The notes below the pieces were generated by a model. The model saw nothing but the letters and a program-made list of their open reading frames with translations. It ran no database searches and was not told where the DNA came from. A stretch of DNA of 64,000 nt. It comes from Bryobacterales bacterium KBS 96. Lineage in GTDB: Bacteria; Acidobacteriota; Terriglobia; Bryobacterales; Bryobacteraceae. The stretch lies in contig KB906767.1 of NCBI GenBank assembly GCA_000381625.1, forward strand, positions 4,579,357 through 4,643,356. The letters are read 5' to 3'. Shown one piece after another: positions 51,604-62,378 of this stretch. Both the position numbers and the translations under genes were made by a program. The first letter of the stretch is position 1. Each line of letters begins with the position of its first letter.

Positions 51604-52536
51604 ATGCAGCGGCGGGGATTCATCGAAACGGCAATTGCGGCAGCTTTGGCCACCGACTCACGCGCTCAGAGCGTCATCGGCGCTGAACCGCAGGTGGCGA
51701 TTGAACGTTCCAATAGCGGGTCGCCGCATCGCGGCAAAGTTCTGGCTCTCATCACGCCTCACCTCGATGACGGGCCAATTTTCGCGGGCGGGACTCTCGC
51801 GAAACTCCTGAGCGAAGGCTATACCGGATTTTTCATTCGTACGAGCAACGATGAAAAGGACTCCTACCGGTTAACGCTCGGAGAGACAGTGCTCGCGAAT
51901 CAGCGCGATACCGCGGCCTTTGTTAAGACCGCTGGGATGAAAAAATGGTTCGACCTCAGTTACCGGAATCATCGAATGGACAACGTCTCCCGGACGGACC
52001 TTCGAGGCCGCCTCATATTTCTATTTCGGCTGCTGAAAGTCGATACTGTGATGAGCTACGACCCATGGGGGCACTACGAGGAAAACCCGGACCACTATGT
52101 GACGGCGCAGGCCGTAGAGGCGGCCTGCTGGATGTCCGGCGGCAATCTCGATCTTCCGGAGCACTTCGAAGCTGGATTGAAACCGCACTCAGTCTCCGAG
52201 AAGTACTATTTCGCGAGAGGTCCGCAACTGGTGAACAGAGTTGTCGACATCGGCCCTGTTCTTCCGCAAAAGGTTGCGCTGATTCGCTCCTGCCGGACGA
52301 TGATTACTCACATGGTGAAGGATGTAAACGACACGCTTGCCGAACGAAAGCTACGCCTGCCCGCCTTCACCGGAAACGAGGAAACAGCGGCGGAGGAGTT
52401 CATCAAAGCTGCATTCGTAGCGCGGGATCACAAGACCGGCGGTAAATACGGGCTCGACTATGCGGAGGAATTTCACTACATCGGACCCGACCAATCGCTC
52501 GACGACTATATTTCCCATAATGCGGTCAAGCTATAG
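51604..52536 (+). CDS. PIG-L family deacetylase with RR leader
   Basis: A 310-residue LmbE/PIG-L type zinc de-N-acetylase, usually acting on N-acetylglucosamine-containing substrates. The metal-binding motif reads TPHLDDGPIFAGGTL (canonical A/P-HPDD-E/A), keeping His and both Asp. The second motif is NPDHYVTAQAV, keeping the Asp-His pair. The N-terminus MQRRGFIETAIAAALA resembles a twin-arginine leader, so the enzyme may act in the periplasm. It lies between two Oar-like receptors, which suggests work on an imported amino-sugar compound (inference). Confidence 0.85.
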   Translation: MQRRGFIETAIAAALATDSRAQSVIGAEPQVAIERSNSGSPHRGKVLALITPHLDDGPIFAGGTLAKLLSEGYTGFFIRTSNDEKDSYRLTLGETVLANQRDTAAFVKTAGMKKWFDLSYRNHRMDNVSRTDLRGRLIFLFRLLKVDTVMSYDPWGHYEENPDHYVTAQAVEAACWMSGGNLDLPEHFEAGLKPHSVSEKYYFARGPQLVNRVVDIGPVLPQKVALIRSCRTMITHMVKDVNDTLAERKLRLPAFTGNEETAAEEFIKAAFVARDHKTGGKYGLDYAEEFHYIGPDQSLDDYISHNAVKL

Positions 52537-52563: not shown

Positions 52564-55500
52564 TCAAAAAATGTACTTCAGCGCGAGTTGCATCTCGCGA
52601 TTATCCAGCTTCGTGCTGGTCACCTGGCCGAATGCCGTGTCTCCCAAATTGGCGTCCGGGTTCGAGTACTGCGGCGTGTTGAACGCATTGAAAGCCTCGG
52701 CCCGGAATTCAAGCGAGTGATTCTCGTTGTACGGCATATGGAACTGTTTCATCAGCGTCAGATCGAAGGCGTGCGTTCCGGGCCCTACCAGAGGATTTCG
52801 CGGCGAGTTTCCGTACATCAACACGCTGGGGGTGAACGCGCCAGTATTGAACCAGTTTGCCGGCCCCTGGTTATGAACCGATAATTGCTGGCCGGGCACG
52901 AGGTTCGGACGCTCCCAAATGCCATCGTTGTTTTGGCTGTCGAAGCTCTCCAGAATGTCGAACGGGTTACCGCTCGCCAGCGTGACGATGCCTTCAAACG
53001 ACCAGCCTTTGGCAATTGCGCCCGGCGCGCCTGTCCAATTCCTGGCAAATGGTATCTGCCAAACATAGCCGATTACGAGATTGTGACGTTGATCGTAAAC
53101 GCCGCTGGCGCGCTCGGCCGCGAGATTCCGAGGATTCTGGCAGCCGCATCCGCCGCTATTAGTCGTCTCCATCGCATTATCGATTTCGTGAGACCATGTG
53201 TAGGCTGCGGAAAAACTCAATCCCTTCGTGAGCCGTCTCTCGAAATGCACTTGCAACGAGTTGTAGCTGATATTGGCGCCGTAGTATTCCAGGCGGATGC
53301 GCGCGAACGTGGGATATAGGCGCCGCGCCTGAATATCTCCGGGACCGGGATCGGGCTGGTTCCAGTTCTGAAAGCTGGTGTCCGAGTGTGTGGCCTTGTT
53401 GCCCACGTATCCGACATCGAGAACGTTCGCGCCGAACTGTTTCGAGACCATCAGGTTCCAATTCTGTACGTAAGTGTCGGGATGGTTGCGATCGGCCGGA
53501 ACGGTGACGGCGTTGAAGAATGGATTCGCGGGATAGAGCGCGGCAGGCACCGGGTTCTGTATCGTCGCAATCGGATTCAGGGCCGGGTTCGTGATTGTTA
53601 AACTGCCGGCGGTCGGAGGATTCAGTTGCAGGATGTTGATGTTGTCAAACTGCCCGCCGAAATAGAAGATGCCGTATCCGCCGCGTACTACCCAACTCGG
53701 TAGGGGATTGTAGGCGAATCCGAATCGCGGGCTGATGTCTTTATTCGATATATTCCAGAGATTGTGCAGCACCTGCCCCGGAGGTGGAACGAATAGCGGC
53801 GGATTAGTGCTGAAATCGAGAGTGCGCGTGACACCGTTCTCGTCGACTGGAATGCCAAACCGGTCCCAGCGCGCGCCGATGTTCAGCGTCAGCTTGGGCG
53901 TGACTTTCCAATCGTCCTGGAGGTACAAAGCCGTTCTCCACTGGCGGGCCTTTGTGATCGGTACGCCTTCGGGCGTGAGCGTGGTTCGTGGATAGCCCAG
54001 CATAAACGCTGCGGCGGGGTCTCCCGAAATATCACCCGTAAAACTCATGCTTCCAAAAGGCCAATTATTCGTGGTGGCGTTGTCGTACAGTTTGCGGACA
54101 TCAACCCCGAGTTTCAGCGTATGTTTTCCTTTGACCAAGGTGAGGTTGTCGACAATCTGATAAGTCTGGCTGTTATCCAGATTCGAAGCCGCCAGATCGC
54201 TGCCCATGCCAAGGTAGCCGGCGATATCGATGATCGGAAAGCCTTCTTCATCCGATCGTAAGGGCCTGCCGTTTGGACCGCCGACATTCAGCCCATTGAT
54301 GCCAAGCGACTGAATGGTGAAGCCGGTGTTTGTCAACGTGCTCAACTGCGCCACATTTTCCCGATCGAACCCGGCGCGGAATTCGTTCAGCAAGGTTGGC
54401 GCGAACGTATGAACCCACTGCGCGGAGAGATTATCGATCGGGTACGTTCCCGTGAACGTGAAGTTTGGATTTAAATCGGTTTCCGGAAAGTTCCGGAACG
54501 CCTTGATGTAATGAACGAAAAGCTGATCGCGCTCGCTGAAATAGTGATCGATGCGCGCAATGCCCTGGTTCACCGTCAGATTGCCCAGCGACGATCCGGC
54601 ATAATTCACGTTTCCCGAAATGTTGGGCAGCGGCATGTATTTGTTAATGAGGTTCGAAGAAACGGGATTCAGGAACGCGGCCGGGATCTTGTTGCCCGCA
54701 AACGGAACGCCGGTAGTCGGATCGGTAATGGGAGTCGATGAGCCCGAGAAGTCGCCGATTCTTTGCTGCGGCGTGAGGACGACTGCAGTCCCCGGCGTCT
54801 GCTGTATCGACCGAAGCCCTTCGTAACTCAAAAAGAAGAACGTTTTGTCGTGAATGATGGGACCGCCGAACGTGGCGCCGAACTGGTTCTGCTTCAGGAT
54901 ATTTTGCGGCAGCGGCGAAGGGAGGAAATAGTCCCGGGCATCCATTGCAGAATTCCTCAGAAACTCAAACACATCACCGTGGAAGCGATTTGTGCCGGAT
55001 TTGATTTGTATGTTGACGTTGGTCCCCGCGTTACCGCCATATTGCGCCGAGTAGTTGCCCGTCTGAACACTGAACTCTTGAATGGCGTCGATCGAGGGAT
55101 ACAGGTTTACGTAGTTGTGGCGATTATTCACCATCGTGATTCCATCCACGTTGACCTGGCCCCAGATCAGACGTCCGCCATTTCCGCCGATTTGCGACCC
55201 GTCCGTGCTGGATGAATGCAGATTGGGATTGTATACTTGAACGCCCGGCGTAAGAATCGCCAGATCGTCAAACTTCCTGCCGTTTAGCGGAAGATTTTGG
55301 ATCCGCTCGGGGCCAACCACATTACCTAAACTCGCGTTTTCTGTCTGGAGCAACGGAGGCGCTGCCGTTACGTCTACTGTCTGCTGCACTCCGCCGACCG
55401 TAAGGGCGAAATCAATCTTCGCCTGCTGTCCCAATTGGATGGTCACAGCGCTACGCCGCACCGCGTTGAAACCGGTAGCTTTTATCTCGACGGCGTACTC

Positions 55501-55764
55501 TCCCGGCAGCAAATAGCGAAACTCATACGTGCCGTCCGCTCCGGTTCTCGCCGTTCGCGAGAGCCCTTTCGCAGCCTGCGTCAAGGTGACAGTACCGCCG
55601 GTAATCACCGCCCCAGCGGAATCAGTGACCGTTCCTAAGATAGCCGTATCGACGGTTTGAGCGACGGTGGATCTTTCCAGAGCTATCAAAGCTGTTAGAA
55701 GCAATACGCTTTTAAGAGCGTCTGAAAGCGCTCGAAAGAAAGGGAACCACCGATTGTATGACAT
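52564..55764 (-). CDS. Oar-like TonB-dependent receptor with carboxypeptidase regulatory-like domain
   Basis: A 1,066-residue paralogue of the receptor at 48-51 kb. Signal peptide (LKSVLLLTALIALERSTVAQ), carboxypeptidase-regulatory-like domain (ILGTVTDSAGAVITGGTVTL), plug (RIQNLPLNGRKFDDLAILTPG, here near residue 155), and a beta-barrel ending QLALKYIF. The start at 55764 (MSYNRW) is preferred over 55797 because GGGAGGG stands just upstream. Location: outer membrane; ligand unknown. It is convergent with the PIG-L gene and downstream of the SelA-like gene on the same strand. Confidence 0.93.
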   Translation of the reverse strand: MSYNRWFPFFRALSDALKSVLLLTALIALERSTVAQTVDTAILGTVTDSAGAVITGGTVTLTQAAKGLSRTARTGADGTYEFRYLLPGEYAVEIKATGFNAVRRSAVTIQLGQQAKIDFALTVGGVQQTVDVTAAPPLLQTENASLGNVVGPERIQNLPLNGRKFDDLAILTPGVQVYNPNLHSSSTDGSQIGGNGGRLIWGQVNVDGITMVNNRHNYVNLYPSIDAIQEFSVQTGNYSAQYGGNAGTNVNIQIKSGTNRFHGDVFEFLRNSAMDARDYFLPSPLPQNILKQNQFGATFGGPIIHDKTFFFLSYEGLRSIQQTPGTAVVLTPQQRIGDFSGSSTPITDPTTGVPFAGNKIPAAFLNPVSSNLINKYMPLPNISGNVNYAGSSLGNLTVNQGIARIDHYFSERDQLFVHYIKAFRNFPETDLNPNFTFTGTYPIDNLSAQWVHTFAPTLLNEFRAGFDRENVAQLSTLTNTGFTIQSLGINGLNVGGPNGRPLRSDEEGFPIIDIAGYLGMGSDLAASNLDNSQTYQIVDNLTLVKGKHTLKLGVDVRKLYDNATTNNWPFGSMSFTGDISGDPAAAFMLGYPRTTLTPEGVPITKARQWRTALYLQDDWKVTPKLTLNIGARWDRFGIPVDENGVTRTLDFSTNPPLFVPPPGQVLHNLWNISNKDISPRFGFAYNPLPSWVVRGGYGIFYFGGQFDNINILQLNPPTAGSLTITNPALNPIATIQNPVPAALYPANPFFNAVTVPADRNHPDTYVQNWNLMVSKQFGANVLDVGYVGNKATHSDTSFQNWNQPDPGPGDIQARRLYPTFARIRLEYYGANISYNSLQVHFERRLTKGLSFSAAYTWSHEIDNAMETTNSGGCGCQNPRNLAAERASGVYDQRHNLVIGYVWQIPFARNWTGAPGAIAKGWSFEGIVTLASGNPFDILESFDSQNNDGIWERPNLVPGQQLSVHNQGPANWFNTGAFTPSVLMYGNSPRNPLVGPGTHAFDLTLMKQFHMPYNENHSLEFRAEAFNAFNTPQYSNPDANLGDTAFGQVTSTKLDNREMQLALKYIF

Positions 55765-55854
55765 GCAATCCCTCCCAGTGCGAAGGAAGCTTATCACAAA
55801 TCTGTGAAATTTTAAGTCTCTAATATAACGCCAGCGCGCAATGGACGGCCAGTC

Positions 55855-57525
55855 TCAGGCTCGGCCGGGCCCGCCGAAATTGCTCTTGTGCCGGGTCGCT
55901 GTCCATTTGGCCCCCCGGTACTCGCTCATGTCCAGGTCTCCGCCCATTCCTTCGGGCGTTACGGTTCCGGAGAACGTATAGTTCAACACCGCCCCGTGCT
56001 GCTCACCGATGCTGCTGGTCATTTTTATATGGTTGCCGTGCAGCGAGCCCAGGAGATCCCGCGCCAGATAATCGCCCTGGTGCGTGCCGGTGATATCGGA
56101 ACCGTTCTGCTGCAAGTAGAGGTTGTGCGTCGAGCGGCCCGCGGCAAATTCAATCTGCACATCCCAGGCCCCGCTGACATCGGAGGAAGGCGGCGCGGTA
56201 TCCTCCGCGAGTTTCGTTCCGGCGGCTTTCGAGAGGATGGTTCGCAGCCGTTCCGCGACAATTTTGTCGTCGCCGGGGCACATCATGTAAGCCGTGATCG
56301 AGACGCCCGATTCATGGTCGGGCGACGGATGACCGAATCGCCCCCCGCCTCTGCCGGAGAGAGCGATGCGAGGCTCGGTGGTGAACAGCGTATGTTCGAC
56401 ATCGGCGCCGGTGATCCCGACGCGGTCCGTATCCCAACGAATCTGCAGAACCGGACTGTGATTCGATAGCTCCTTCGTCTCCCGAATCGAAGTCGTCACT
56501 CCTTGCACCGATCCGGTTTCTTTCGCGATGTGATTCATCCAGGACATCCAGGTGTTCCATTCAGCTTGATGATCCCGCTTAGTCCACGCTTCGACCGCGG
56601 CGAGCATGCCCATAGCTTCTTCCTTTCCGACTTTCATGGCGCGGCCATATCCATGATGAGGAGCGCTGTGAACCCAGGCGGCCTTCACCAGATCCTTGCG
56701 GCCGAGAATCAGTCCCGCGCACTGCGGGCCGCGAATGCACTTACCGCCGCTGTAGCCCACTAGCGTCGCGCCGCGCTGTAAATGCACGTTCGGAATTGTC
56801 AGCATTTCCGCCGCTGCGTCCACCAGCACCGGAATGTTGCGTTCGCGGGCGGCCGGGTAGATCATGTCGTAGGTCAGCGGCCCCGTTTCGGCATGCGGGC
56901 CGGCCAGCACATAAATCATTCCGACGCGCGGCCCTAGGGCGGCCTTAAATTCCTGCTCGTTTCCCACTTCGACGATCCGCACGCCGATAGACCGGATGGC
57001 TGCATCGTACTCGTTGCGTGAGTGCTTCGGGATGACGACTTCGTCCTTGGCAAAGCCAGCGAGATTCGGAATTCTTGTGTGCAGATCCGGATTGCCACCC
57101 GCAATGCAGGCCGCGGTTGAGTGTGCAAGTCCGGCGGCGCACCCGGACGAGATCATTCCCCATTCGGCTCCCGTGATCTCCGCCAGACGCTGCCCCACGC
57201 CGTCGGCCAGTTCATCGAGCTGCACGTAATGTTGGGCGGCGGCGTGCTGCGCGTGCGTGACTTCCGGCAGTTCCAGTGAACCGCCAATGATCGTGTAAGT
57301 GCCGCGGCAGTTGATTACCGGATGAACACCGATGGATTCGTAGATATTCGCCGCCGTCGCGGAAGTGACGGCGACGCCCTTCGCGGCTGCAGGGCTGGAA
57401 ACAGCGGCCGTACTGGCGGCTTCGAGCCCAGGAGCCAACCCGAGCAGGGCGCTACCGCGCAGCAAATCCCGGCGACTCACGCGATTGAGGTATTGGCCTA
57501 ATGAGCTAACGAAAGTATCCTGCAT
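55855..57525 (-). CDS. exported SelA-like PLP-dependent enzyme with C-terminal beta domain
   Basis: A fold-type I PLP protein related to SelA / D-glucosaminate-6-phosphate ammonia-lyase. The N-terminus has a twin-arginine leader (RVSRRDLLRGSALLGLAPG). The catalytic core (about residues 70-450) begins IGVHPVINCRGTYTIIGGS, has VLVDAAAEM before the cofactor site, and the Schiff-base Lys in YSGGKCIRGPQCAG. A C-terminal extension of about 100 residues (WDVQIEFAAGRSTHNLYLQQ, then SGTVTPEGMGGDLDMSEYRG) looks like a lipocalin-like beta-barrel seen as add-on in acidobacterial exported enzymes. The start is 57525, 57534 or 57555. An exported PLP enzyme is unusual. Confidence 0.85.
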   Translation of the reverse strand: MQDTFVSSLGQYLNRVSRRDLLRGSALLGLAPGLEAASTAAVSSPAAAKGVAVTSATAANIYESIGVHPVINCRGTYTIIGGSLELPEVTHAQHAAAQHYVQLDELADGVGQRLAEITGAEWGMISSGCAAGLAHSTAACIAGGNPDLHTRIPNLAGFAKDEVVIPKHSRNEYDAAIRSIGVRIVEVGNEQEFKAALGPRVGMIYVLAGPHAETGPLTYDMIYPAARERNIPVLVDAAAEMLTIPNVHLQRGATLVGYSGGKCIRGPQCAGLILGRKDLVKAAWVHSAPHHGYGRAMKVGKEEAMGMLAAVEAWTKRDHQAEWNTWMSWMNHIAKETGSVQGVTTSIRETKELSNHSPVLQIRWDTDRVGITGADVEHTLFTTEPRIALSGRGGGRFGHPSPDHESGVSITAYMMCPGDDKIVAERLRTILSKAAGTKLAEDTAPPSSDVSGAWDVQIEFAAGRSTHNLYLQQNGSDITGTHQGDYLARDLLGSLHGNHIKMTSSIGEQHGAVLNYTFSGTVTPEGMGGDLDMSEYRGAKWTATRHKSNFGGPGRA

Positions 57526-57600
57526 GCTTCCAATCATCTCGCATTGGAAGGGCAAGAGAAATGGGGTGCGGGAGGCTCACGAGCACACCGGCTGAATTGA

Positions 57601-58095
57601 CTATTCGACGAGTCTAGCGAGATTATCCAGGGATGATCTACAGCCTAACTCATTATCTTCGGGCCGAATGCCTGGTGGTAGATTCTCGCATAGCAGCGTT
57701 ACGAGAGTGCCCTTTCCGGCGTCGGTAAGGCTTGTGGTCATCGTCATCGCGCCGTCGAATCTTGCGTCATTCGATTCGAACTCAATGAGTTCAATAATCT
57801 TCTCGTATGGGATCAGCTCGATGAATTTGCCTTGAAATGTGTCCGTGTATTCGGAAGTCTTCCCACCTGGAGAATTCTTTGGATCGGTGTAAACAAGCGA
57901 CATTCGGTACGCTCCACCTTCGCGCGCATCGAATGCATGCACGTAAGCCTCCATGTTTTTTGGCGCTCGCCATAAGGCCAGAACATTAGGGTTGAGAAAC
58001 GCTTCGTATATGACACTGCGGGGCGCCTGAATGATCCTTGATACTTTCGTGCTAGCCCGCACCGCAGTTGGCTCCAAGTCCATTGTGAATGGCAT
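57601..58095 (-). CDS. SRPBCC (AHSA1-like) domain protein
   Basis: A 164-residue protein of the START/SRPBCC superfamily, AHSA1 branch: VSRIIQAPRSVIYEAFLNPN at the N-terminus, LALWRAPKNM, then GGAYRMSLVY and the long C-terminal helix ending SSLDNLARLVE. These form a helix-grip ligand-binding cavity. In other genomes such genes often sit with small ArsR regulators, but none is here. The ligand is unknown. Confidence 0.88.
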   Translation of the reverse strand: MPFTMDLEPTAVRASTKVSRIIQAPRSVIYEAFLNPNVLALWRAPKNMEAYVHAFDAREGGAYRMSLVYTDPKNSPGGKTSEYTDTFQGKFIELIPYEKIIELIEFESNDARFDGAMTMTTSLTDAGKGTLVTLLCENLPPGIRPEDNELGCRSSLDNLARLVE

Positions 58096-58253: not shown

Positions 58254-59270
58254 CTACTTCTCGCTCGGGCTATCGTCGGCCTTAAGATCGCCAAGCGCAT
58301 ACTGAATCCCCGCCAGCATGTGCGCCACAAACGGCCGCGAATAATAGACCTTCTCATCGTGGCCGTGCGCTTCATAAAATACGCGGCCATTGCCGACTCG
58401 CTGTATGTAACTCAATGCGTAGTCGCCATCGGTGCGTCGCGTCGCGGCCGGTTCCTTGGCCTTATCTTCCGCGCTCATTTTCTTGTAGTTGATGCTGGTC
58501 AACACGTGAACACGCTTACGGCTGAACGAGTTTTGCGCGAAGGTGTACGTCTCGTCTACAATTTCGTAGCCACCAGCCGGGAACATGGAAGTTAGCGGGC
58601 TGTTGGGATCGTCAATTTTGACGGGAATCAGAGTCGGGTAGGACCAGTGAAATTTGAAAAAGCCGCCGATCATTTCGTTGAATTCAGGCCAAGTGCCAGT
58701 CGGCGCAGTTGGCTCGGCGCCGGGTGAAGCCGGGCGCGGACTCGTGTGGTACGAATCGGTTGCGGCGTGAATACCGGCTAGACCCTTTCCACCCTTGACA
58801 AAATCGAGAAGCGCCTGCCTGCGCGCCTGGGTTGCCGCTTTATCGTTGGGATCATCCAGAAACTGGCCTGTGGTGCTGTCCAGAAAGATCGCGTCATATT
58901 GCTTGAGATTTTCAGCGGTGATCGCGGCGGGGTCGTAAGTGATGGTTGTCATCCACGCGCCTGTCTTGTCTCCCAGATACTCAACCATCTTCGCCGCCAA
59001 CGGGATAGACGTATGCACCCAGCCATTTGCCCTGCACAATACGAGTACATGACGAAGACTTTGGGGCGCCGCCAGCGGCTTATCCGGCAGTGCAGCCATC
59101 ATCGCCGAGATATCAGACGGGCTAGCAAACTGCTTTTGCGGACAGCCGCGACTGAATCCTCCGCTAAATCCTTCCGCCGGACAAGGCTTTCCCGGTTGCG
59201 TCTGCTGCGCGGACAGAAGGCCGCACAACAGCATGAGAGCACTCCATGCGGCAATGCTGAATTTCTTCAT
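58254..59270 (-). CDS. exported ThuA-domain protein
   Basis: A 338-residue protein with a signal peptide (FSIAAWSALMLLCGLLSAQQ) and a ThuA / glutamine-amidotransferase-like domain: RHVLVLCRANGWVHTSIPLA near residue 75, YDAIFLDSTTG near residue 123, and GGKGLAGIHAATDSYH near residue 160. The end has GNGRVFYEAHGHDEKVYYS. Members are linked to sugar utilisation (trehalose in rhizobia), but the reaction is not settled. Its place among exported sugar-type enzymes fits that picture. Confidence 0.88.
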   Translation of the reverse strand: MKKFSIAAWSALMLLCGLLSAQQTQPGKPCPAEGFSGGFSRGCPQKQFASPSDISAMMAALPDKPLAAPQSLRHVLVLCRANGWVHTSIPLAAKMVEYLGDKTGAWMTTITYDPAAITAENLKQYDAIFLDSTTGQFLDDPNDKAATQARRQALLDFVKGGKGLAGIHAATDSYHTSPRPASPGAEPTAPTGTWPEFNEMIGGFFKFHWSYPTLIPVKIDDPNSPLTSMFPAGGYEIVDETYTFAQNSFSRKRVHVLTSINYKKMSAEDKAKEPAATRRTDGDYALSYIQRVGNGRVFYEAHGHDEKVYYSRPFVAHMLAGIQYALGDLKADDSPSEK

Positions 59271-59784: not shown

Positions 59785-60087
59785 AACTGCTCCTAAGCCG
59801 ATATTAGGGAGGGAGGTAGGTAGAGCTTATCACACGTACAGAACGGCGGCGGGACCTCAAATATGCGGATTAGGAATAATAAGTAACTCTCGTTTCAAAG
59901 AACAGTGCGCTATAGCGGGCGCGGCCGGACCACCACGATCATCGATGCCAAAAGTGGTGAACGATCCCAACCGGGCGGAGCCCCCGGTTGGGGAGCTGGG
60001 TGGGATAGTGGTTCTGCGGGTCCAAATCCGGAACGCAGGTATTTGAAAAAATCCAACTGTCGAAAAACGATCAGTTTGAGAAACCGA
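59785..60087. other. intergenic region with strong hairpin
   Basis: Some 300 bases upstream of the amidohydrolase start. The longer open frame through it (from 59905) is not family-like. It contains CCCAACCGGG (59966-59975) pairing perfectly with CCCGGTTGGG (59983-59992), a 10-bp stem with 7-base loop and no T-run. No promoter stands out. Confidence 0.45.
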
Positions 60088-61017
60088 ATGCAACGAAGAA
60101 CATTTTTGAAAACATCAGCCGCTGTTCTATCCGTTCGGAACGTCTTTGCGCAGTCAGCGCCGGATTGGGGCGGTCCGGTCTTAGACACGCATCTGCACCT
60201 TCGAACGGACCCCGACGCTTGTTTCACACACACGCGAGGCTGCGGTGTGACAAACGCCGTTCTTCTCACTCGGGCAACAGATGAAGACAAGGCAAAGCAG
60301 GAGATGGCGAAACGGCCAGGAGTATTTGTGCGCTCCGTTGCCACCGATCCGGCTCAAGCTGGCGCCGACGAAGTAATACGGAAGGCCGTTCACGAAGGGG
60401 CCGTCAGCGTTGGTGAATTAAAATATCACCTTGCGCTCGATTCGCCGGAAATGCGCCGCATCTATGACATCTGCGCGGAGATGCGCGTTCCCGTCATGAT
60501 GCACATCCAAAGCTTTCCGCATTTCCGCGGCGAACTCCCGTACAACACTGGATACCCGCAGTTCGATAAGGTGCTCCGGGCATATCCGAGGACGAATTTC
60601 ATCGGGCACGCTGATCTGTTCTGGGCTCATATCAGCGCTGACGTACCCACGGACCGCGGCTATCCGTCTGGGGCTATAAAGCCGGGTGGACTAACGGACC
60701 GATTTCTTTCGGACTACCCGAATCTGTATGCCGACATGTCTGCCAACTCCGGGAACAATGCCCTTTCGCGCGACAAAGACTTCTCTCGCGAGTTCATCGT
60801 GCGCCATCGCACAAAATTGATCTTCGGAAGTGATTGCAGTTGCACCGACGGGAAAGGAGGGGGCATTTCACAGGGCCGAAATCCGGAGGCCAGCAGGCTG
60901 GCCGGGCAGTGCGTGGCTCGCGCGACGCTCGGATTGCTCAAGGAAATCACCTCGCCGGAGATCTTCCGTCAGATTACATGGAGCAACGGACAACGAATGT
61001 TCAAGGTAAACGCGTAA
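60088..61017 (+). CDS. amidohydrolase-family protein with RR leader
   Basis: A 309-residue TIM-barrel metal hydrolase of the amidohydrolase-2 type. The leader MQRRTFLKTSAAVLS has a twin arginine. Metal ligands are visible as HLHL in VLDTHLHLRTDP, MMHIQSFPH, FIGHADLFW and the late Asp in IFGSDCSC. The start at 60088 is chosen because the leader begins there; the frame opens at 59905 through hairpin sequence. Likely substrates in this family are lactones or decarboxylated acids. It is convergent with the enolase-superfamily gene. Confidence 0.87.
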   Translation: MQRRTFLKTSAAVLSVRNVFAQSAPDWGGPVLDTHLHLRTDPDACFTHTRGCGVTNAVLLTRATDEDKAKQEMAKRPGVFVRSVATDPAQAGADEVIRKAVHEGAVSVGELKYHLALDSPEMRRIYDICAEMRVPVMMHIQSFPHFRGELPYNTGYPQFDKVLRAYPRTNFIGHADLFWAHISADVPTDRGYPSGAIKPGGLTDRFLSDYPNLYADMSANSGNNALSRDKDFSREFIVRHRTKLIFGSDCSCTDGKGGGISQGRNPEASRLAGQCVARATLGLLKEITSPEIFRQITWSNGQRMFKVNA

Positions 61018-61085: not shown

Positions 61086-62378
61086 TCAATCGAAGAACTG
61101 GCGATCCTCTTCCGCGAGGCGCCGTTTAGCAGCGGCCACCTTGAAGGTCACGCCAAGACCAGGGCTGTCCCAGACGTCGATGAACCCTTTTTTGACGATC
61201 GGATTTGGCAGGCCTTCGACAATGTCGTACCACCACTCGGGCTGGCCGAATGGGTACTCGAAGGCTATGTAGTTTTGGGGTAGCGCGGCGGCCATCTGCA
61301 CGTGGGCGGCGAGGCCGATCAGGCCGTCGAAGATGCCGTGCGGGGCGACTAAGATGCCGTGAATGTCAGCGTATTCGGCGATCCATTTGAGTTCGGCAAT
61401 GCCTCCAACGTCTTCCGGGTCGGGGCCGACTACGTCTACTGCCTGCTTCTCGATCAGATCCTTGAAATTCTGTCGCAGATAGATCTGTTCTCCGGTGTGG
61501 ATTGGGACTGACGTCGCTTGTTTGAGGTCCCGGAAGAGTTCCGCGTTCGGGTAGGGAGTGTAATCGCCCGTGAGGATGTCTTCGATCCAGGTGATGCGCA
61601 TCGGCTCGCATGCTCGAGCGAATGTGACCGCGTCTTTCATCATCCAACCAGGGCCGCAGTCAAGCGCGAGGCCGATCTCGTCGCCCAGCACCTTCTTCAT
61701 CGCTTCGACGCAGGAGATCACGTAATTTAGGCCGCGTTCAGTCATGAGCCCGCGGTTCGGGTGCGGCGCTCCTTTGCGCGGCTCGTCGTACCACATATCG
61801 GGGATGGCGCCCATCATTGCGGGGTTGTGGAAGCCCACGGCCATCTTGATGAGCGTGAAGCCTTCCTTGGCTTCCTTCATCTTCTGCACGTTCTCGGCGT
61901 AGTCCCGCGGCGTTTGCCCTGTCATCGGTGGCCGAAAGCCGCCGTTGTAGATACGGACGCGGTCGCGGATCTTACCGCCCAGCAACTTGTAGACGGGCAC
62001 TCCGGCGACCCGGCCTGCGATGTCCCAGAGAGCGATCTCAATCGCACTTACTGCCGAGCCCCACGGCTTGAAGGCGCCAAGACGGCGGATCTTCAGCATG
62101 ACTCTTTCGACGTCGGTTGGATCTTCGCCCAGAAGATAATCCTTGTAGAAGAGGACCATCGGCTTGAGATACGCTTTTGCCGACTCGGCCTGACCGTAGC
62201 CGGAGACGCCCTGATCGGTGACGATTCGTACGACAGGGTTGCGGCCAATGACGGCGCATCGCAGATCGGTGATTTTAATTTTTGGTTGTCCGGCACGTCT
62301 TTCCTGAGCGGCGAGCGACGCCGCTGCTGCCGCAGCCGATAGCGATCCTAGAAAACCTCTGCGTGTCCACGTAGTCAT
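61086..62378 (-). CDS. mandelate racemase/muconate lactonizing enzyme family protein with RR leader
   Basis: A 430-residue member of the enolase superfamily. The leader TRRGFLGSLSAAAAAASLA is a twin-arginine signal. The barrel carries the expected Mg ligands: Asp in LALDCGPGW, Glu in WIEDILTGD and Glu in HTGEQIYLR. A possible base occurs in LIKMAVG, and the acid/base His in LVAPHGIFDG. This arrangement fits acid-sugar dehydratases (for example galactonate type), but the substrate is not determinable. Most family members are cytoplasmic, so export is notable. Confidence 0.88.
   Translation of the reverse strand: MTTWTRRGFLGSLSAAAAAASLAAQERRAGQPKIKITDLRCAVIGRNPVVRIVTDQGVSGYGQAESAKAYLKPMVLFYKDYLLGEDPTDVERVMLKIRRLGAFKPWGSAVSAIEIALWDIAGRVAGVPVYKLLGGKIRDRVRIYNGGFRPPMTGQTPRDYAENVQKMKEAKEGFTLIKMAVGFHNPAMMGAIPDMWYDEPRKGAPHPNRGLMTERGLNYVISCVEAMKKVLGDEIGLALDCGPGWMMKDAVTFARACEPMRITWIEDILTGDYTPYPNAELFRDLKQATSVPIHTGEQIYLRQNFKDLIEKQAVDVVGPDPEDVGGIAELKWIAEYADIHGILVAPHGIFDGLIGLAAHVQMAAALPQNYIAFEYPFGQPEWWYDIVEGLPNPIVKKGFIDVWDSPGLGVTFKVAAAKRRLAEEDRQFFD

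Follow-up and report, generated by a model that had tools for sequence, protein, structure and literature searches.

A SelA/DgaE-like PLP enzyme with a twin-arginine leader and an avidin-like barrel, and a possible periplasmic β-elimination route with RidA in Acidobacteriota

We analysed a stretch of 64,000 nucleotides from Bryobacterales bacterium KBS 96, hereafter the window. On its minus strand, an open reading frame runs from an ATG at 57525 to a stop codon at 55855, coinciding exactly with the interval 55855..57525. It encodes a SelA/DgaE-like PLP enzyme of 556 amino acids, with a leader containing an arginine pair (RR), a PLP core and a C-terminal barrel. The earlier note, which gave no strand, had claimed the RR leader, a core with a GGK cofactor lysine and an extra C-terminal β-rich domain: all three are present in this frame.

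A TonB-dependent Oar-like receptor (52564..55797, minus; PF25183, 1e-232) lies 57 nt downstream of the enzyme gene, and the same order recurs in locus L006. Upstream, at 75 nt, is an AHSA1 (SRPBCC-type) protein (57601..58095, minus; PF08327, 1e-16), followed by a ThuA-like protein with a signal-like N-terminus (58254..59270, minus; PF06283, 3e-34). On the plus strand, a protein of the PIG-L deacetylase family (51604..52536; PF02585, 2e-12) has RR close to its N-terminus, and relatives of it lie near homologues of the enzyme in L053 and L087. Further off, an enolase-superfamily protein (61086..62378, minus; MR_MLE_C, 6e-44) has an RR leader that passes the TIGR01409 Tat domain model, with 18.0 bits against a cut-off of 16.7. 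Together with an RR-led amidohydrolase at 59905-61017, it belongs to enzyme types that are usually cytoplasmic and here look exported. Rid, EF_0837-like amidohydrolase and aldolase genes are absent next to the window gene and present elsewhere in its genome.

The N-terminal leader covers about residues 1-45 (57391..57525, minus). The pair, R18 and R19 (57474..57469), stands in the motif VSRRDLLRG (SRRDLLRG) of a leader segment at about residues 16-34; both arginines are invariant in a 15-row alignment (A1, 15/15). Translation could also begin in frame at a TTG at 57555 or at another ATG four codons before the chosen one; the pair is kept with every start. Removal of duplicates and of frames open at a locus end reduced 229 homologous reading frames to 145. 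An RR followed by any residue and a hydrophobic one occurs within 65 amino acids before the core in all 145, compared with 78 of 958 control windows of 65 amino acids inside the same enzymes. A second control, taken 65-130 amino acids upstream, gave the pattern in 7 of 17 cases; this small sample can be reached by long leaders and was set aside. A stricter pattern with two hydrophobic-type residues fits 136 of the 145 homologues, 126 of which reach a hydropathy of at least 1.0 over 12 residues behind the pair, and an AxA motif follows the RR pattern by 12-45 residues in 128 of 145. The earlier note had named a start codon after the pair in orthologues as evidence against export. This is not borne out: RR precedes the core in every one of the 145 frames, and in the window gene the only possible starts between the two are TTG codons 21 and 30.

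Comparison with the 91%-identical orthologue in L006 shows 14 synonymous and 4 non-synonymous differences in codons 1-41, with both arginine codons unchanged; the linker codons 42-60 differ at 7 synonymous and 8 non-synonymous sites. From the drift in codons 1-41, the leader looks translated. Its hydrophobic stretch is short, and the Pfam model TAT_signal (PF10518) gives the window protein 15.2 bits, under the cut-off of 22.7; at E<=1 it is matched by just 3 of 15 aligned members. The window genome encodes TatC (PF00902, 2e-60). Altogether, Tat export of the window enzyme is likely, and from its sequence features we infer an exported location.

The fold-type I PLP core occupies about residues 58-440 (56206..57354, minus). 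In the predicted structure of the whole protein the mean pLDDT is 78, falling below 50 in the leader. VIA-align superposes the core on Cap15 (8t7j) with Z 36.8 at 2.7 Å over 351 residues and on DGL (7lc0) with Z 35.7 at 2.8 Å over 356 residues and 30% identity, a near tie; SelA and threonine aldolases follow at Z ~24, compared with ~36. By sequence, the nearest solved proteins are the same two, DGL at 2e-35 and Cap15 at 3e-27. The lysine K262 of the SGGK motif (codon 56740..56742, minus) corresponds in the alignment to the PLP lysine of DGL, which is residue 213 by the chain index of 7lc0 and numbered 217 in PMC9529869, and is a lysine in 145 of 145 distinct homologues.

The label SelA-like, used by the earlier note, holds as a loose name: Pfam SelA (PF03841) is passed narrowly, with 24.2 bits against 22.8, and among solved structures DGL and Cap15 are nearest. 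As a function, L-seryl-tRNA(Sec) selenium transferase is rejected, TIGR00474 giving 26.5 bits against a cut-off of 267.9. The DgaE models of NCBIfam match at 2e-49 (TIGR01437) and 5e-48, both under cut-off (TIGR01437 at 168.3 against 385.3 bits, NF047797 at 163.8 against 600). A plain DgaE identity is rejected on these scores and on a missing histidine. At the column of DGL His163 the homologues have a gap, none of the 145 carrying His there, and HH is found in no loop of this gappy part of the alignment. Some His is present in 20 of the 145 loops; in the window protein, whose sequence here is AGPHAETG, the His is displaced by one column. The family thus apparently does without the DGL proton donor. 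Of the phosphate-site residues, Arg301 of DGL faces V359 of the window protein, with Arg at that column in 25 of 145 homologues, and positions 332 and 346 fall outside the alignment.

The C-terminal domain, about residues 452-545 (55891..56172, minus), was modelled alone, fold prediction being among the checks that had been proposed for it. It forms eight β-strands (DSSP of the model) arranged as an avidin-like barrel (pLDDT 85). In fold it resembles designed barrels, with Z up to 14.0, the QHNDH domain of 1jju (Z 13.5, 2.6 Å, 105 aligned) and many avidins (Z ~12-12.8). With avidin, streptavidin and QHNDH the likeness is one of fold only, as the sequence search of the domain against the PDB returned 0 matches. 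Foldseek found none in the PDB at E<=0.001, the best being 0.002; in a viral structure library, two entries match at E<=0.001, both uncharacterized phage proteins. Pfam has no family for the window domain, and one weak match (Caf1, E 0.089) appears in 1 of 11 domains; assignment to a known Pfam family is rejected. We take the barrel to be a module for binding or docking.

Elsewhere in its own genome the domain matches weakly at two sites. One, at E 0.003, closes a 369-aa protein whose N-terminus looks signal-like (profile E 1.4e-5); the other, at E 0.07, is a partial match (E 2e-5). The domain also occurs alone: of five short stand-alone barrel frames, those in L145, L146, L149 and L150 have a Sec-like leader by eye, the exception being L148, which has none. 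These four look like small secreted proteins made of the avidin-like barrel alone. Elsewhere too, then, the barrel would be mostly an extracytoplasmic module.

These leaders also bear on whether the RR pair of the enzyme might be non-functional or partly used, leaving the enzyme in the cytoplasm. The short hydrophobic stretch, the sub-threshold TAT_signal score and its match in 3 of 15 members would suit such a location. We consider it very improbable, given the RR pattern in 145 of 145 homologues from two phyla, the synonymous drift in the leader, the mostly Sec-led stand-alone barrels and the neighbour genes that have leaders of their own.

The 145 distinct homologues come from several acidobacterial families and from one Bacteroidota record, Parapedobacter lycopersici, which has three copies (L013). 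Within the family of the window genome, 94 of 150 genomes match at E<=1e-80, and in a draw from the phylum 28 of 297 match at E<=1e-40, the own genome being included in both. The window genome holds four further homologues of 35-41% identity, each with RR and without the barrel. On a FastTree phylogeny of 124 homologues with DGL and Cap15, in which 98 rows bear the barrel, its presence changes once. Three genomes of genus g82 (G161, G162 and G163) contain 11, 9 and 12 barrel-domain matches. Most lie in frames about as long as a SelA-like enzyme, which makes this a large expansion of paralogues.

Gene context, of which the earlier note made no use, is the most informative about the chemistry. 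The loci of at least 5.5 kb, drawn for the most part from top-scoring matches and not at random, numbered 109 after four duplicates were dropped; with L120 and L121 left out 107 were examined, of which 104 hold a homologue. A Rid-family gene (RidA: enamine/imine deaminase) lies within 400 nt of the homologue in 22 of these 104 loci, nine of which (L181-L189) represent one family, f4; anywhere in the locus, the count is 31. Among 126 distinct homologues, 31 have a Rid gene as immediate neighbour and 95 do not, and 19 adjoin an EF_0837-like amidohydrolase (similar to that of L118 at E<=1e-20). The frequency of Rid falls with gene distance, positions 1 to 6 giving 23/226, 5/202, 0/188, 3/165, 0/129 and 2/83. 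Rid adjacency needs 14 changes on the tree, so it has been gained or lost repeatedly.

The Rid family is known as cytoplasmic or organellar, and signal-like leaders on its members are unexpected. Among 24 adjacent Rid genes (23 distinct) we find 20 RR leaders and 3 Sec-like ones; in the last gene (L190, 488 aa), which counts as unclear, a simple rule detects no leader. The PF01042 cut-off is passed by each of nine linked or nearby Rid genes tested (L118, L181, L013, L048, L053, L084, L214, L186 and L220), as do all six of the 24 adjacent genes that were run against Pfam (L053, L084, L181, the second copy of L186, L214 and L220). The RidA-motif arginine, which we take to be catalytic, is present in 32 of the 34 aligned pieces; the remaining two are partial alignments. 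TIGR00004, the NCBIfam model for detoxifying Rid proteins (cut-off 106.25), is passed by the triple Rid of L118 with 214.8 and missed by four of the single type: L181 (64.8), L186 (37.9), L082 (63.7) and L098 (49.4). The amidohydrolases tested against the EF_0837 model TIGR03583 score ~202-207, under its cut-off of 432. On substrates of EF_0837-type proteins, the literature search yielded a single paper, which concerns dihydroorotase.

The composition of the clusters varies. In f4, a short SelA-like gene, a Rid gene and a barrel-bearing SelA-like gene follow each other in 8 of the 9 loci L181-L189, L189 having no short one. A TonB receptor nearby, an amidohydrolase and an ORF of ~260 amino acids usually complete these loci; this ORF was scanned in L181 only and is RraA-like there (PF03737, 2e-35). 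L186 has the order MFS-Rid-SelA-amidohydrolase, and L013 a row of SelA-like, amidohydrolase, Rid and RraA-like genes. In L048, which holds a relative of the window gene at 79-81%, an RR-led Rid gene and an RraA-like gene lie ~4-5 kb away. Proteins of the RraA-like aldolase family with signal-like N-termini occur near SelA-like genes at L181:6656-7438, L057:8937-9806, L013:6039-6968 and L048:2582-3316.

Barrel-bearing and non-barrel enzymes are often direct neighbours or separated by a Rid gene (L007, L008, L048, L181-L188). One could suppose from this arrangement, and from the 9-12 barrel-domain matches per g82 genome, that the window copy, as a barrel-bearing paralogue, serves in regulation or binding and leaves catalysis to the operon paralogues. 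We hold this to be quite unlikely: all 145 homologues retain the PLP lysine, and barrel-bearing copies adjoin Rid genes in L082, L098 and L220 with no short partner in sight.

In the window genome itself, the fullest cluster is an operon of contig C1 at ~216-229 kb (L118:2050-15156). In order of transcription, it encodes a TonB receptor, an enolase-superfamily protein, an IolE-like TIM barrel, a SelA-like enzyme, an Amidohydro_2 protein, a PRK09237/EF_0837-like amidohydrolase, a second Amidohydro_2 protein, a triple Rid with a Sec-like leader, an HpaI/GarL-like aldolase and a galactonate-type MFS carrier. Like the triple Rid, the amidohydrolases of this operon are taken to be exported. The EF_0837-like amidohydrolase passes NF006689 with 421.6 bits (cut-off 371) and remains under the cut-off of TIGR03583. 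The enolase-superfamily protein passes the model for o-succinylbenzoate synthase, 276.3 over 200.65, a group that presumably also includes N-acylamino-acid racemases. The genome has nine Rid genes (11 domain matches), five of them with leaders by eye (L108, L109, L110, L113 and L114).

These neighbours help to weigh what the enzyme might do. An exported racemase or epimerase, a threonine-aldolase-like lyase or a transaminase, with D-amino acids or amino acids of the cell wall as substrates, would agree with the match of the core to threonine aldolases, with the diverse functions of the family and with the enolase-superfamily genes near homologues in L118, L207 and L209. Such activities seem unlikely to us. 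DGL and Cap15 stand well above the other folds (Z 36 against 24), and the Rid linkage would find no explanation in a racemase or aldolase, as neither releases an enamine.

Cap15 is an O2-dependent monooxygenase-decarboxylase of capuramycin biosynthesis (PMC7497351). Since it is as close to the window core as DGL in fold but catalyses an O2-dependent decarboxylation, the reaction is not readable from the fold. The enzyme might accordingly be an exported O2-dependent oxidative one, like Cap15 or PvdN, performing a decarboxylating oxygenation of an amino acid while RidA clears imine by-products; the Tat-exported PvdN is indeed described as of this reaction type in PMC7497351. The linked amidohydrolases and deacetylase, the HpaI- or RraA-type aldolases and the sugar-acid carrier suit a 2-oxo acid better than a carboxamide, however, and the sequence E-values favour DGL, so that we rate this oxidation as rather improbable.

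DGL β-eliminates the 3-OH of a D-amino sugar acid, with His163 as its proton donor; the mutant H163A stays active and is proposed to release the enamine (PMC9529869). A transient absorbance near 293 nm is reported for this mutant. The PLP core, its lysine and its fold are shared with the window protein, and the 2-oxo-3-deoxy acid aldolase that acts downstream of DGL (PMC9529869) is of the same general type as the one in L118. DGL differs in acting inside the cell on a phosphorylated substrate, in the absence of leader and barrel from its chain, and in having His162/His163 and phosphate-binding arginines. A second parallel is the Ong pathway of Pseudoalteromonas for N-acetylglucosaminate, composed of the deacetylase OngB, the PLP deaminase OngC and the RidA protein OngD and placed in the cytoplasm (PMC9537276). 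It has in common with the clusters described here a de-N-acetylase, a PLP deaminase giving a 2-oxo-3-deoxy acid, a RidA and outer-membrane transport, whereas OngB and OngC are predicted to be cytoplasmic and OngC, of fold-type III, is unrelated to SelA/DgaE (PMC9537276). OngD is listed there as needed, its own role in the pathway not being established (PMC9537276). Taken with the apparent absence of His163 and the frequent Rid linkage, the enamine release of DGL H163A and the Ong parallel suggest a periplasmic route of β-elimination and RidA.

We therefore favour, with somewhat better than even confidence, a window enzyme that is a Tat-exported, β-eliminating PLP ammonia-lyase of the DgaE/SelA-like superfamily, working in the periplasm within an extracytoplasmic pathway that includes a co-exported RidA. 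The sequence itself shows the leader, the core with its lysine, the barrel and the gene linkage; we infer the export, the substrate, the reaction, the order of steps and the sharing of the pathway between the window copy and its relatives. The enzyme would fold and load PLP in the cytoplasm, cross the inner membrane by Tat and work in the periplasm. The TonB receptor would take up an N-acylated D-amino acid or amino-sugar acid, from which exported amidohydrolases would strip the acyl group or whose lactone they would open. Elimination of the 3-OH by the SelA-like enzyme would then release an enamine/imine, hydrolysed by the co-exported RidA to a 2-oxo acid and ammonia. The sugar-acid MFS carrier would import the 2-oxo acid, which an aldolase of the cytoplasm would split; in some clusters an exported RraA-like protein would do so. 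RidA may matter here, as PLP that is damaged or lost in the periplasm is not easily replaced.

More tentatively, and with less than even confidence, we extend this to a common scheme of Acidobacteriota and at least one Bacteroidota. De-N-acylation, PLP β-elimination, enamine hydrolysis and, in some clusters, an RraA-like retro-aldol cleavage would all occur outside the inner membrane, RidA being co-exported as an enamine-damaged PLP enzyme could not be reloaded there. With the reactions placed outside, only nitrogen-free acids would need import.

Profile libraries place the family only loosely near DgaE and SelA; the proposed lyase, if true, would supply its function. It would also point to a route in a major soil phylum that releases nitrogen outside the inner membrane. 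To our knowledge, work on reactive-enamine chemistry and RidA has concerned the cytoplasm or organelles. Should an exported PLP lyase of wide distribution indeed travel with its own exported RidA, it would offer a natural test of why RidA exists, namely of its rationale as a protection of PLP enzymes where the cofactor is irreplaceable. A literature search whose coverage leaves out most subscription journals brought up neither an exported SelA/DgaE-like enzyme nor an exported RidA, and the words 'periplasm' and 'signal peptide' are absent from the main text of the Rid survey PMC4433059.

The Tat export of a cofactor-loaded PLP enzyme, as put forward in the earlier note, is already known in itself, from PvdN and PtaA, which we take to lie outside the SelA/DgaE family. 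For the window enzyme the idea stands as likely, on the RR pattern of all 145 homologues, TatC, the mostly Sec-led stand-alone barrels and the signal-led Rid neighbours. PvdN and PtaA are enzymes of pseudomonads that pass through Tat folded with their cofactor (PMC6206403). They differ in serving pyoverdine tailoring, and the sections of PMC6206403 that bear on them mention neither Rid nor amidohydrolase partners.

Cytochrome c, SMP30, CBM9-like and DUF362 genes are found near some homologues. In the own genome, at L106:3102-9186, genes for a quinoprotein, a cytochrome c and an SMP30 lactonase-like protein lie between two SelA-like genes. A PQQ dehydrogenase beside homologues could be taken as a sign of glucosamine oxidation, an idea weakened by the scores of the L106 copy, which leave its activity uncertain: 538.6 with the 'acido-empty-quinoprotein' model (cut-off 650) and 484.8 with that of PQQ alcohol dehydrogenase (cut-off 480.05).
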